Shown one piece after another: positions 22,390 through 26,309 of a stretch of 39,108 bases of DNA. The stretch covers positions 1 through 39,108 of IMG/VR virus record IMGVR_UViG_3300012208_000008; one strand, written 5' to 3'. The position numbers were made by a program, and so were the translations under genes. The stretch comes from a virus. Within the stretch, counting starts at the first letter, position 1; each line of letters opens with the position of its first letter. Below the pieces are notes generated by a model. It was not told the origin of the DNA, ran no database searches, and saw nothing but the letters and a program-made list of their open reading frames with translations.

Positions 22390-23000
22390 TAGTTCACCGC
22401 GCTGCTTTTCCCCGCCAGATCATAGAAACAAATCCAGATCAGTCTTCCATCGCTCGGCGATTTCCCGAAAGCCTCGAAAGGGTAGCGGCTGTGGAAGAGA
22501 TTTGTGGGATAAGTGATAAAGCGGTTCCACTTCATCTCCACGAACCAGATTTGCTCCCACCAATCGAGCACTTTCCATTCGCGGCTCATCATGGAATAGA
22601 ACCACTCGGCATTTGCGCCGCGGCCTGTCAGTTCTTCCTTGCTGGGCAGCCGATCGAGGCCAAGTGCCGTATGCCGCCAGAAGGCTGTGCCGCCCTTGGC
22701 TTGCTCCGCCGGATTGAGATACAGAACGCTCGCAAACTCGGCGCAAATATCGTCGGAATGCACCCAGCTGTGTGGCAGTTCGCCCGCCAGATTCAAGCGA
22801 AAACAAGACAATCGCGGGATGATGGGATGTCCGATGGCTGAGGCAATTCTCTCGTACCAATGAGGCACAGGATATTTAGAAATGCCGGTGTAGGCGGCGC
22901 CGTCTGGCCCGGTTTCCGTCGAGAATTCTCCCGCAATCACCGCTTCACGGACTTCCCGCGCGTCGGGCGCGAAATCATCGAACTGGCGCAATGGAATCAT
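22389..23000 (-). CDS. 2-oxoglutarate/Fe(II) dioxygenase-like (DUF6445-like) protein, 203 aa
   Basis: ATG at 23000 (ATGA overlap). Motifs: VHSDD with His81 and Asp83 as the HxD iron pair, FASVLYLNP and GGTAFWRH (core strands), distal His170 in NLFHSRYPFEAFG, and Arg186 in DGRLIWICFYD for 2-oxoglutarate. The layout matches the double-stranded beta-helix DUF6445 proteins, whose substrates are mostly unknown. Coupled with a GNAT gene upstream and placed between tail-accessory and ejection genes, it may modify a virion protein or surface sugar. Confidence 0.7.
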   Translation of the reverse strand: MIPLRQFDDFAPDAREVREAVIAGEFSTETGPDGAAYTGISKYPVPHWYERIASAIGHPIIPRLSCFRLNLAGELPHSWVHSDDICAEFASVLYLNPAEQAKGGTAFWRHTALGLDRLPSKEELTGRGANAEWFYSMMSREWKVLDWWEQIWFVEMKWNRFITYPTNLFHSRYPFEAFGKSPSDGRLIWICFYDLAGKSSAVN

Positions 23001-23422
23001 AGTGTGCGCTGATAAGAACTTTCGACGTAGGAATATCCAAGTCTCTTATAGAGCCCTGCCACGCGCTCGTTCGGGGCAATCATCTGCACGTGGGAAGCGC
23101 CAGCCAGCCGCGCGCGGTTTTCCGTTTCTCGCAAAAGTTTCAACCCAGCTCCCCGGTGCTGCGGCTCTACCCACCAAAAAACTTCTCCAACGGTAAGATC
23201 CCCGGAAAGGAAGTGCGGGTAGATCAGAAATCCCAGCATCCCGATGATCTGCCCGTCTTCCTCGGCTACCAGAACGGAATTCCTGTCCGTGAGTTCCCTG
23301 GCCAGTTTGCGCATTTGCTCGGGGTTGTCGCTCAAGTGCGCTTTGTAGGAGCTTTCCCGGAGGAATCGCTGGCCCATTTCGACCAGTCTACTGAGGTCGG
23401 CTTCCCTGGCTTCGCGTATCAT
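22997..23422 (-). CDS. GNAT-family N-acetyltransferase, 141 aa
   Basis: ATG at 23422 overlaps the previous stop. Clear GNAT core: IREAREADLSRLVEMGQRFL start, NSVLVAEEDGQIIGMLGFLI strand, VGEVFWWVEPQHRGAGLKLL with the acetyl-CoA-binding Q-x-x-G-x-G (QHRGAG, residues 88-93), then MIAPNERVAGLYKRLGYSYV, the usual C-terminal GNAT motif. Acetyl-CoA-dependent acetylation of an amine is expected; the substrate is unknown. GNATs in phage tail regions occur and may modify virion components. Confidence 0.85.
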   Translation of the reverse strand: MIREAREADLSRLVEMGQRFLRESSYKAHLSDNPEQMRKLARELTDRNSVLVAEEDGQIIGMLGFLIYPHFLSGDLTVGEVFWWVEPQHRGAGLKLLRETENRARLAGASHVQMIAPNERVAGLYKRLGYSYVESSYQRTL

Positions 23423-23670
23423 CCGTGCTCTTTCTGCTTCCCAATTTCAGAAAGCAATGCCACTGCCGCCTTTTCGGCGTTCTCATGCTGTGTGGCGCAG
23501 AAATCGCGTGCCGCGGAAAGGCTTGCGGCCAGCTTTTGCAAGTCTCCGGCTACTTCGGCGGCCACGGTATGTGCATGGTCGCTGGCGGGATTCGCGCAGC
23601 AGCGGATGGTGACGGCGAACTGCCCGTTAGAGAGCTTTTCGTACTTCACGATTTCAGTGATGTGGGCCAT
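23419..23670 (-). CDS. small hypothetical protein, 83 aa
   Basis: ATG at 23670 overlaps the stop of the Hint-domain gene (TGATG). The product starts with a strand pair (ITEIVKYEKLSNGQFAVTIR) with two adjacent Cys and continues as a helix (TVAAEVAGDLQKLAASLSAA). No family recognised. Overlaps the GNAT gene by four bases. A role with the preceding Hint protein is possible because the two are translationally coupled. Confidence 0.65.
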   Translation of the reverse strand: MAHITEIVKYEKLSNGQFAVTIRCCANPASDHAHTVAAEVAGDLQKLAASLSAARDFCATQHENAEKAAVALLSEIGKQKEHG

Positions 23671-24593
23671 CAGTTTTTGAATACGTTATGAGCAATCTGC
23701 CCGTTGGCCAGCGCGAAGCAGTGCATTTCATCGCTCATTCCCGCTTCCAGCTGCAAATTGTAGATGGTGCCCCAGTAAGGCATCGGCTGCCCTGGGAAAA
23801 TCGTGTCCGCGGCTACCCACTCCCCGTCCTTGTACAGCCGATGGCCGGGAGTAACGTGCTGGCCGTCCTCCATGCGGCAGAGCGGGCCGTCGTAATCGTG
23901 CTCCAAGAGCTTCATCACGCGCCGCCAGCCGGCGAGACTCAGCACTTGATCTCCTTCGCGGATTTCCGAAATCGGCACGCACCCGCGGCGGGTTAGCACC
24001 AAGGTTCCCGCAGAAAAGCATGCTCCCCCGCCTCCGCCTCCGCCCACGCCTCCTCCACCTCCCGTAGTGGTGATTTTCCCAAGATAAAGCCTGCCATCAT
24101 TCGCCGTCACATTGGGATTAGATGTACTGGCCTGGTAGGCAACGGCCCCGCCAAGAAAAGTTGGATCATCCGCAGTGACAAAATAAGTGCCATAAGCCCC
24201 CGGATCTACGCTGCCGGAATTGTAGGCCACATCGCCATCGGGAAACCGTTGGGTGGATGCCGCGACATTGATGGTTGTTGTGGTTCCGCTTTGCGTGAGC
24301 GGTTGCGTCGTTGGCGTGTAAGAAGCCAGCGCCGCCGTCGCTCGTTTGGTTCCCGCTAAACGGCTATTGGCATCCAGAGCGATGAAGCCGCGCTTGCCTC
24401 CGGCCAAGGGAGACCCAGCGCCATCGGCGGCTATCTGGTCTGTGCTGACCAGTTTACCGAGCTGCGTGAGTGCCGGATCGGTCTTCGACACCAAATCACG
24501 GATCAATCGCAGCATCTCGGGAGTGGGCTTGCCGTCGCTATCGACAATCGGCCCGCGAGACCAGGAAATCGGACGGGGCTTTGAAACAGCCAT
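23670..24593 (-). CDS. virion-region protein with polyglycine linker and C-terminal Hint domain, 307 aa
   Basis: ATG at 24593. Residues 1-175 resemble a tail-fibre-like beta protein (GPIVDSDGKPTPEMLRLI, DDPTFLGGAVAYQASTSNPN). Residues 178-190 are almost pure Gly. At 192 the Hint domain starts: block A CFSAGTLVLTRRGCVPISEI with Cys192, block B HVTPGHR (246-252), and block G AHN (301-303), just four residues from the end. The domain could perform an N-S acyl shift at Cys192 and cleave or activate the polyglycine end. There is no C-extein, so splicing is unlikely. Position after gp10-like suggests a tail component. Confidence 0.8.
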   Translation of the reverse strand: MAVSKPRPISWSRGPIVDSDGKPTPEMLRLIRDLVSKTDPALTQLGKLVSTDQIAADGAGSPLAGGKRGFIALDANSRLAGTKRATAALASYTPTTQPLTQSGTTTTINVAASTQRFPDGDVAYNSGSVDPGAYGTYFVTADDPTFLGGAVAYQASTSNPNVTANDGRLYLGKITTTGGGGGVGGGGGGGACFSAGTLVLTRRGCVPISEIREGDQVLSLAGWRRVMKLLEHDYDGPLCRMEDGQHVTPGHRLYKDGEWVAADTIFPGQPMPYWGTIYNLQLEAGMSDEMHCFALANGQIAHNVFKN

Positions 24594-24603
24594 TGGTCAA
24601 CCC

Positions 24604-24921
24604 TTACTGACTGGGCGTGTTTGCGACAATCGCAGCAGCAAGCGCGTTGGCCGAATCCGACATGGACTTCACGGTATCTTGCAGCGCCGCGCGGTCGGCA
24701 GCCGAAATAGGCCCGCTCCCCGCCAAGGCTACCGTGAGTTTAGTGAACAACGCAATCAGGGCCGCGTTGGCTGCCGCTTCAGCGTCGGTATTGGCCTTAG
24801 CCTGCGTGATGATGGCCTGTAGGTCTGCATCCATTTGATTCTCCTTTGCGAGTAGTAATCTAACCGCTGACAGAATCTCGTCCAACCGGGTGTCGTGATG
24901 GAGGTGGACGTGGAGATTCAT
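24604..24921 (-). CDS. small helical virion-region protein, 105 aa
   Basis: ATG at 24921 overlaps the gp10-like stop (TAATG); a 14-codon upstream extension is rejected. His-rich start (NLHVHLHHDTRLDEI), then helices (AIITQAKANTDAEAAANAAL, SDSANALAAAIVANT). The helix-rich, Ala/Asp/Gln sequence resembles small phage tail or head accessory proteins annotated as hypothetical. It sits where P22 carries its tail-needle gene, but I see no coiled-coil needle or knob pattern. Confidence 0.65.
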   Translation of the reverse strand: MNLHVHLHHDTRLDEILSAVRLLLAKENQMDADLQAIITQAKANTDAEAAANAALIALFTKLTVALAGSGPISAADRAALQDTVKSMSDSANALAAAIVANTPSQ

Positions 24922-26309
24922 TAGTATCCGCCCGCCATCGCCTCCAAAAAGGCGCTGATCCATACCTGCTTTACAGGTTCCGTGCTCTTTACCTCATACA
25001 CGCGGTCCCGCGCTTCGCCTAGACGCCTCCAAATCGCCATCCGCCGGTATTCGCCTTGCTTCCCCATGCTGGCTAAGCGTTCATTCGACCAGGTATGCCC
25101 GCCATCGTTCGACCAGCGCAGGGTAAGTTGCGGATCGCTCCCCTGACCGGCCGGCAACCCTACTCCCGATTCCAGATCCAACTGGAAGGCGCCGTGGAAG
25201 ATGCGCTTCCCGGTGCTTGACAGGTGCGGGGCGCGGCGCAGCCACATGATGGGTTGGCCATCGTCGGTAAACACCGCATCGCTCATTTCGTACAGGTTGC
25301 CATTCTCGAAATCGCCCACCAGGTGCCGCGTGCCGTCGAAAATATGCTGCTCGGCGCGATGCCTGGTAATCGTGCCATCCGCTTTCAGGCTTTGCCGCTC
25401 ATGCCACAGGCTGGTAGCGGCATCGAAGATCCAAGTCGTCGCCGCTGCCGGAAAATTCAGCGCATAGAACGAATGGCCGTCCAAGATGTAGGTGTAAGAA
25501 GTGGCGCCCGAGAGGTTCCCGTAGGTCGAAAGCGCATATTCTATGGCATGCGTGGAGATGCGCCGCGGGCTATAGCTCTCGGCCCGCTTGACGATTGCCT
25601 GCCCTTTGTCGTTCACCATCACGTACAAAAGGGTGTTGTCGATCTTCTGCACCGTGCCGGCAATGGCCCCTTCCTCAATGAAGCCCCCTGGAACGCGCTG
25701 GAATGGGTTGTCGGCGTCGCCGCTGTCGTAGAACACTTCTATGCTTCTGTCCCCAAAAAGCCACAGTTCGCGGTGATCGACCAGCAAGGTCAGCAAGTTG
25801 TCTGGTTCGCCCTCGGCGCTGCCAAAATCCAGGCCATCCCAGTTGGTTGCGTCCGAAATAGCTGAAAACCAGAATTTTCCCGTTCCTGGCTGGTTGACGA
25901 TGATGTATTGGTCAAGGAATTGCGCGACATTCGCCCCGGGCGGGAAGTCCGGGTCGCCAATCTGGTTGAACGCATTCGTCGCAAAACGGAAGGTATAGCC
26001 TTTAGCCCCATCGGCTAGCACTAAGTCTGTGCCGTTATCGGTCATCAGGATGGAACCCAGGCCAGTCGTCAGCGTTCCCATCGGGATGGGTACATTGGGC
26101 GTTGTGACTTCATAAAGCGTTATCCCGCTGACCATGAAACTGCGACCTACGGATGAGTAATACAGCCCCCGGCATGGTCCCAAGCCCGCCGTTGACAGCT
26201 TTTTGAGGCCTGGAGAGCCTACCAGGGCCGCAATTTCGTGTTCTTTCCCGGTACCCAGCTCGTCCAGTTCAGGGTACAGATTGACGCAGCGCTGCGCGTC
26301 CACGTTCAC
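24921..26309 (-). CDS. P22 gp10-like packaged DNA stabilisation/tail hub protein, 462+ aa
   Basis: The only standard start is GTG at 26309. Typical gp10-like N-terminal pattern: DAQRCVNLYPELDELGTGKE, VGSPGLKKL. Later: GLGSILMTDNGTDLVLADG, QFLDQYIIVNQPGTGKFWFS and FGDRSIEVFYDSGDADNPFQ, a beta-propeller-like repeat seen in the family. gp10 closes the portal channel and carries the tail needle. The in-frame sequence before the GTG (KFPGFIGPSYTARS) looks like genuine N-terminus. An ACG at 26357 overlapping the gp4-like stop may be the real start, or an altered ATG. Confidence 0.8.
   Translation of the reverse strand: MNVDAQRCVNLYPELDELGTGKEHEIAALVGSPGLKKLSTAGLGPCRGLYYSSVGRSFMVSGITLYEVTTPNVPIPMGTLTTGLGSILMTDNGTDLVLADGAKGYTFRFATNAFNQIGDPDFPPGANVAQFLDQYIIVNQPGTGKFWFSAISDATNWDGLDFGSAEGEPDNLLTLLVDHRELWLFGDRSIEVFYDSGDADNPFQRVPGGFIEEGAIAGTVQKIDNTLLYVMVNDKGQAIVKRAESYSPRRISTHAIEYALSTYGNLSGATSYTYILDGHSFYALNFPAAATTWIFDAATSLWHERQSLKADGTITRHRAEQHIFDGTRHLVGDFENGNLYEMSDAVFTDDGQPIMWLRRAPHLSSTGKRIFHGAFQLDLESGVGLPAGQGSDPQLTLRWSNDGGHTWSNERLASMGKQGEYRRMAIWRRLGEARDRVYEVKSTEPVKQVWISAFLEAMAGGY

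Follow-up and report, generated by a model that had tools for sequence, protein, structure and literature searches.

What does a Hint domain do at the very end of a phage virion protein? The question is raised by a 39,108-base virus contig (the window, meaning the whole stretch of DNA analyzed), where positions 23670-24593 on the minus strand encode a 307-residue protein. Inspection of its translation reveals GGGGGVGGGGGGG at residues 178-190, followed by Ala191 and Cys192, an HVTPGH motif at residues 246-251 and, near the end, His302-Asn303, after which Val304-Phe305-Lys306-Asn307 (VFKN) lead directly to the stop. A sequence-only reading of the window had pointed to the near-pure glycine stretch and to a Hint domain with Cys192, HVTPGH and a terminal His-Asn; translation, the Pfam Vint family and a structure model of residues 178-307 bear out each of these, and the four residues that it counted to the C-terminus are correct. 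From N- to C-terminus the protein comprises a P-I-V-D..G.P segment, a poorly characterized middle, a beta-rich region at 105-176, the glycine linker, Ala191, the Hint domain from Cys192 to Asn303 and VFKN. We propose a needle- or tail-position virion protein in which a type-A bacterial intein-like (BIL) domain lies between a Gly-rich linker and a four-residue tail and may remove itself and pass the Gly-rich end on to the lysine of that tail, a reading to which we give an even chance. The features on which it draws are as follows.

23670..24593, minus strand: whole gene, 307-residue tail/needle-position protein with a C-terminal Hint domain (open reading frame and Pfam)
24474..24593, minus strand: residues 1-40, N-terminal segment resembling a virion anchor, P-I-V-D..G.P...L..L (profile match to Needle protein 9vyg_S)
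24066..24281, minus strand: residues 105-176, small beta-rich region common to the J-like protein of MT835519 (BLASTP, 42% over 76 residues, E 2e-13)
24024..24062, minus strand: residues 178-190, polyglycine linker, 12 of 13 positions Gly (translation)
24018..24023, minus strand: Ala191-Cys192, predicted thioester junction (translation and Hint alignments)
23685..24020, minus strand: residues 192-303, Hint (BIL-like) domain (Pfam, structure model, structure comparison)
23841..23852, minus strand: Thr248-Pro-Gly-His251, block B TxxH (present in every row of the 38- and 37-row Hint alignments, TxxH being no selection criterion for either)
23685..23690, minus strand: His302-Asn303, block G (translation and Hint alignment)
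23673..23684, minus strand: Val304-Phe305-Lys306-Asn307, short C-extein, with Lys306 as candidate acyl acceptor (translation and tail survey)

Fold and class of the Hint domain

A structure prediction and a search of Hint families, two of the checks that the sequence-only reading had suggested, agree on the domain. Pfam Vint (PF14623) matches the window protein at E 8.4e-10, its 39.1 bits exceeding the cut-off of 27, and Hint_2 (PF13403) matches at E 1.2e-5, below its own. An HMM of 37 Hint domains scores the window domain at E 1.4e-16, where the window domain is itself one of the 37. The AlphaFold model of residues 178-307, generated with a 37-sequence alignment, has a mean pLDDT of 88.4 and a pTM of 0.81. 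Comparison of this model with solved structures by VIA-align gave Z scores of 14.6 for the NpuDnaE intein, 14.1 for the BIL 2lwy, 13.8 for the Vint structure 8r2c, 13.6 for Tetrahymena BIL2 (6y75) and 12.1 for hedgehog (1at0), where rows no more than 1 Z apart count as tied. The best solved-structure match for a profile of 38 Hints is again 2lwy (E 2e-29). Cys1, TxxH and His-Asn are present in all 38 of these aligned Hints, Cys and His-Asn having been selection conditions for nearly all rows and TxxH not.

The window Hint carries the marks of a type-A BIL, namely the Hint fold with block A Cys1, block B Thr248/His251, C-terminal His302-Asn303 and Val304 at +1. Available portions of PMC4031507 and PMC7765530 define this class by a retained C-terminal His-Asn and a +1 residue that is not a nucleophile, and by these marks of sequence and fold the window Hint is a type-A BIL, with self-processing activity predicted. 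Three other classes were ruled out: type-B BIL because the intein C-terminal motif His302-Asn303 is present, class 1 intein because Val304 stands at +1 in place of a Cys, Ser or Thr nucleophile, and hedgehog Hog because the chain stops four residues past Asn303, with no space for the sterol-recognition region that a Hog domain carries behind its Hint (PMC7765530, available portion). In block F, assigned by analogy with the description in the available part of PMC4031507, Asn279 occupies the place where Asp is usual and His291 is intact. The hedgehog-type autoprocessing anticipated by the sequence-only reading holds in part: the N-terminal catalytic residues are intact and an activated Gly-rich end would be the expected intermediate, but the closest kind is a type-A BIL and not Hog.

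Comparison with known systems sharpens this placement. The type-A BIL of Clostridium thermocellum (2lwy) shares with the window Hint its fold, Cys1, TxxH, C-terminal His-Asn, a non-nucleophilic +1 and the lack of an endonuclease, whereas the window Hint belongs to a phage virion protein, follows polyglycine and precedes a four-residue C-extein with a lysine. The BIL fold is likewise common to BIL2 of Tetrahymena BUBL1 (6y75, 6tmm), whose published isopeptide ligation to lysine fits the lysine rule described below for phages. In contrast to BUBL1, the window Hint lies behind the Gly-rich linker of a tail protein, and no ubiquitin-like domain was found in front of it, where the N-terminal part matches no ubiquitin-like family and its structure model (pLDDT 39.6) is too poor to be used for structure search. 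Vint is the best Pfam family for the window, yet the match spans only profile positions 1-105 of 166, and 8r2c is a Tetrahymena protein. Hedgehog Hog has in common the Hint fold and the N-terminal thioester chemistry, the latter predicted for the window, whose chain ends too soon after His-Asn for sterol recognition.

Genomic position and the N-terminus

The upstream neighbor (24921-26309) is a P22-like head closure protein Hc3 (phrog_578, E 1e-111), which places the gene in the virion operon and agrees with the tail location given by the sequence-only reading. Downstream lie a GNAT acetyltransferase and a DNA-ejection protein (Pfam, PHROGs). In relatives found through Hc3, the gene at the same position, within the first one or two behind Hc3, varies; annotations that name its product give needle, tail fibre, tail spike or tail collar protein, and often the product is hypothetical. 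A profile built from 10 N-termini at this position, with the Pan3 needle left out, matches the solved Needle protein 9vyg_S at E 9.4e-5, but the window N-terminus as a single sequence matches the Pan3 needle only weakly (E 0.030), such that a needle-like virion anchor at the N-terminus of the window protein is likely rather than proven.

The nearest complete phage loci by Hc3 (71% and 68%; L005 and L006) carry at the equivalent position a gene whose product is Gly-rich at its end and has no Hint. These proteins were rejected as sequence orthologues of the window protein (BLASTP E 16, hhalign probability 0.4%) and are positional counterparts only; given this lack of alignment, VFKN bears only a weak resemblance to the ends GIFR and GLLL. 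The GNAT gene (22997-23422, minus strand) lies near the tail gene, as it does in Pam1 and PBR31 by annotation and in L005, L006 and L008 by inspection of sequence.

Glycine-flanked Hints and their short tails

Direct homologue searches with the window protein confirmed none of 14 pattern stretches in viral_contigs and none of 207 stretches in genome_contigs; 2 of 50,697 phage records matched. NCBIfam gave no match, and PHROGs gave only two, both weak and of unknown function. The layout of polyglycine followed by Hint recurs in independent phages, and for this reason is not a product of chance. A DNA pattern for GGGGxCFxx[GDE]T found at least 120 stretches in viral contigs, and an HMM recognized a Hint at 70 of the first 80 loci. 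After repeats and double regex matches were dropped, the 120 loci included 25 Hints with His-Asn and a tail of at most 20 residues, 38 with His-Asn and a longer continuation, 18 C-terminal Hints without His-Asn and 8 cut by a contig end. With the same pattern in bacterial genomes, TxxH or His-Asn accompanied 21 of 80 loci. PHROGs searches of four host proteins assigned three to tail functions (phrog_2048, tail protein; phrog_32, tail assembly protein; phrog_5616/phrog_31, tail fibre J), with no match for the fourth (L085 type). In phage tail proteins such junctions of polyglycine with a Hint are widespread, occurring in J, in tail assembly protein I and in phrog_2048, so that the word uncommon, which the sequence-only reading had used of its idea on podovirus tails, overstates the case as far as the sequence feature goes.

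Among the pattern loci listed, His-Asn is retained in all 38 Hints with more than 20 residues downstream versus 25 of 43 C-terminal Hints. The other 18 of the 43, about half of which form one lineage, indicate that C-terminal chemistry is not needed in all C-terminal polyGly Hints. This polyGly-CFxxGT lineage without His-Asn (L028, L050, L073, L075, L093, L101, L111, L113, L119) also lacks the usual TxxH where checked, and is possibly a decayed or different domain.

The association with glycine was assessed in a sample anchored on the C-terminal block HTYxA[ND]x[hydrophobic]xVHN, which leaves the N-terminal flank and the +1 residue free of selection. Domain starts were set by HMM, and 87 of 119 loci were usable once 19 duplicates and 13 loci without a start domain were dropped. 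At least three Gly within 10 residues on either side were present in 39 of 50 Hints whose +1 is not Cys, Ser or Thr, versus 1 of 37 with such a residue (Fisher 1.5e-13, a value made optimistic by the relatedness of the loci). This comparison supersedes an earlier one with regex-set starts (60 of 80 loci kept; at least three Gly in the 8 residues before Cys), which gave 1/28 versus 18/32.

Several arrangements recur among these proteins. In proteins resembling tail assembly protein I (L018, L029, L042, L083, L134, L151, L203; phrog_32 for L018), a BIL-like Hint sits inside a Gly-rich linker behind a ubiquitin-like part. Their junction reads ..PVLEGAGGGGG, Hint, His-Asn, GGGGKGGGG, a phage look-alike of the ciliate fusions of ubiquitin-like domains with BILs; the ubiquitin-like nature of protein I is described in the available portion of PMC1779556. 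J-like tail tip proteins (L012, L049, L055, L087 and others) have their Hint almost at the N-terminus, and the short piece before it (..IIGAGGGGG) resembles a duplicate of the start after it (AGLGSKIIGAGGGGGG). Head-to-tail arrays occur within single proteins, with four Hints in L344 and L135, three each in L353, L259 and L079 and two in L207 and L217, separated by up to about ten residues, for example KGG or KGGGGG, or by none.

What follows His-Asn bears on whether the domain has anything to splice. The sequence-only reading had held the C-extein to be absent; a four-residue one, VFKN, exists, and in related families Hint-less members have a C-terminal tail of their own at that place. A J-like protein of the MT835519 phage and contig L382 shares the beta-rich region of the window protein and continues as GGGGATPPGGGY, Hint, His-Asn and the short Lys-bearing tail IKQQEQLQ, although here the Hint is fused to central tail fibre J (phrog_31, phrog_5616), where the window protein has a probable needle-type N-terminus. 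Two Hint-less J relatives end in TPPGGWGGGGYGGGGPGQQQQQ (L389) and TPPPGYGGGGYTPNVVLQ (L390), and the other ten fetched end otherwise or are cut. The likeness of these two to MT835519 comprises the J part and a TPPGG...GGGY linker; the region before their Gly linker did not align with a profile of the window and MT835519.

Two larger families place the Hint between a Gly-rich linker and a short C-terminal tail. Among the best 80 of 365 relatives of L038 (family f38), 10 complete proteins have the Hint and 66 complete proteins do not, one reading ...NTGGGGGGG, Hint, His-Asn, KKDEGIGNKNEQQK and another, Hint-less, ...GGGGGGVRDDGKNVVVQEER. Tails in this set span 12-14 residues with the Hint and have a median of 14 past the last GGG without it. 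The best 80 of 229 in family f85 divide into 16 with and 62 without. In these same sets, the exteins of a Hint-plus protein are up to 95% (f38) and 83% (f85) identical to those of a Hint-less member, and parsimony needs 4 and 8 state changes, respectively, versus shuffled means of 6.8 and 10.9, which indicates that the Hint was gained or lost repeatedly while the exteins stayed alike. The claim of no C-extein is wrong in kind, since the Hint precedes a short tail in two families with many Hint-less members, and the C-extein is a very short one. That the tail past His-Asn represents the native C-terminus is supported for f38 by position, length and charge, and the case appears weaker for f85, where (best 80 of 229) tails with the Hint are Lys-rich, unlike those without, and for the window. 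As a rule for every family it fails in Erwinia/Dickeya jumbo phages, where the Hint-less homologue of Dickeya JA29 stops at the Hint start, with no matching tail. The protein concerned (gp111 of Erwinia phage pEa_SNUABM_32, L395:1517-2956, with about 50 related records) is a collagen-repeat virion protein with a C-terminal Hint, no polyglycine, Thr at +1 and a Lys-bearing tail, and offers a model in an isolated phage.

Inspection of the short tails reveals a single shared residue type. The tails were taken from closed reading frames, in all samples and the window, in which 1-20 residues follow the His-Asn of the final Hint; 53 of them are distinct, and among the matches listed every one of the 53 contains Lys. 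The expectation of 14.8 was taken from C-termini of equal length in 1,711 frames of at least 250 residues, stop to stop, in the same loci, a background that is partly non-coding. Lys is likewise present in 23/23 tails of at most six residues (4.1 expected) and in 32/32 whose first residue is not Lys (7.8 expected). The Hints of these tails fall into 24 clusters at 40% identity, all tails of each holding Lys (5.4 expected; log10 P -16.6), and into only 3 clusters at 30%. Arg occurs in 17 tails (25.3 expected), Glu in 23 (17.3) and Gly in 28 (25.8); because Arg is not enriched, charge alone is a poor reason for the lysine and an amine a good one. Under a stricter control, 20 of 39 tails of Hint-less f38 and f85 relatives contain Lys, and within f85 the contrast is 10/10 tails with the Hint versus 4/15 without. 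The anchored sample agrees, with Lys at +1 to +6 in 35/41 Hints lacking Cys, Ser or Thr at +1 versus 5/43 having one (p 5e-12). The first Lys lies anywhere from +1 to +9, a spread that fits a flexible acceptor. VFKN follows the rule through Lys306, and the positional counterparts GIFR and GLLL have no Lys. A lysine in every short tail suggests that the Gly-rich end may be joined to it.

Predicted chemistry and alternatives

The intact catalytic residues allow a sequence of steps to be proposed. Cys192, aided by Thr248/His251, would attack the Ala191 carbonyl and place the Gly-rich end in a thioester. Asn303, aided by His302, would then cyclize and cut the Hint from VFKN. Given the lysine rule, a tail amine, for which the epsilon-amine of Lys306 is the likeliest candidate, could take up the thioester and leave the Gly-rich end isopeptide-bonded to VFKN, in competition with hydrolysis to a plain Gly-rich end. 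In either outcome the Hint would leave, and the mature protein would look like the one that related phages encode at this position, which lacks a Hint and has a Gly-rich end. We judge self-removal of the Hint to be highly probable, and regard transfer to the tail lysine, which draws on the association with lysine, as about evenly balanced. For type-A BILs, the available portion of PMC4031507 describes thioester formation, Asn cleavage and a joining step in which a free amine of the downstream fragment reacts, cleavage being the main outcome. Tetrahymena BIL2 forms an isopeptide bond to lysine and attaches a ubiquitin-like domain to other proteins at their lysines (PMC8616854, available portion), and the lysine rule points to this second kind of acceptor in phage elements.

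Cleavage alone is the simplest alternative outcome. Here the thioester would be hydrolyzed and Asn303 would cyclize, yielding a 191-residue protein that ends in polyGly-Ala and a free Hint, and the tail lysine would have no ligation role. Val at +1 and the mostly cleaving behavior of type-A BILs (PMC4031507, as above) speak against ligation, position-equivalent Hint-less proteins do have Gly-rich ends, and the loss of His-Asn in 18 of the 43 C-terminal polyGly Hints suggests that N-side release is sufficient there. Cleavage alone nevertheless leaves unexplained both the lysine in 53 of 53 tails and the retention of His-Asn in 38 of 38 Hints with longer continuations, and we consider it rather unlikely. 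An inactive, decayed mini-intein kept as a structural C-terminal domain would agree with the single copy of the window gene in the data searched and with Asn279 in block F (position by analogy with the available text of PMC4031507); Cys1, TxxH, His291 and His-Asn are nonetheless all intact, the model is confident and the window tail holds Lys like the 52 others, which makes decay very improbable.

The sequence-only reading had imagined covalent attachment of the polyglycine end to a partner or surface molecule, and the general idea gains indirect support from the universal tail lysine and from isopeptide ligation by Tetrahymena BIL2 (PMC8616854, in the portion available). The tail lysine of the same protein is the most probable acceptor. 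Were the end instead passed to a lysine on a different virion subunit, or to a host-surface amine, the result would be a covalent link between molecules, as BIL2 makes with lysines of other proteins, and this route draws on the same universal residue; needle chains are multimeric (three each in 9vyg and 9vzi), which would bring a neighbor's tail within reach. The same-chain lysine is nearer, however, and the partner only hypothetical, so that we hold this outcome to be quite improbable. Beyond the window, and returning to transfer onto the tail lysine, the polyGly-flanked BILs of phage tail proteins might form a Hint class that uses, in place of a +1 Cys, Ser or Thr, a lysine in a short tail of otherwise variable sequence and makes isopeptide bonds within or between chains, stapling tail tips or needles during assembly without ATP or a separate enzyme, a generalization that we offer tentatively and regard as doubtful.

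BIL domains were already on record two decades ago and are not known to have a settled role. That every short tail past His-Asn holds a lysine is a simple rule that was not expected, and from it a specific acyl acceptor can be predicted. No title or abstract opening among the mainly non-subscription papers searched dealt with polyGly-flanked BILs in phage tails or with a lysine rule for BIL tails. If the proposed transfer is true, a self-removing domain would make the isopeptide bonds by which phages join tail protein ends, and phage BILs would offer a compact means of ligation at lysine. Even with cleavage only, the survey places BIL-like elements preferentially in Gly-rich linkers of phage tail proteins. 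Separately, an ordinary-looking intein with Ser at +1 lies in the large terminase of Rhodobacteraceae phage LS06-2018-MD07 (L003:3900-5948, plus strand), a gene annotated as terminase only.
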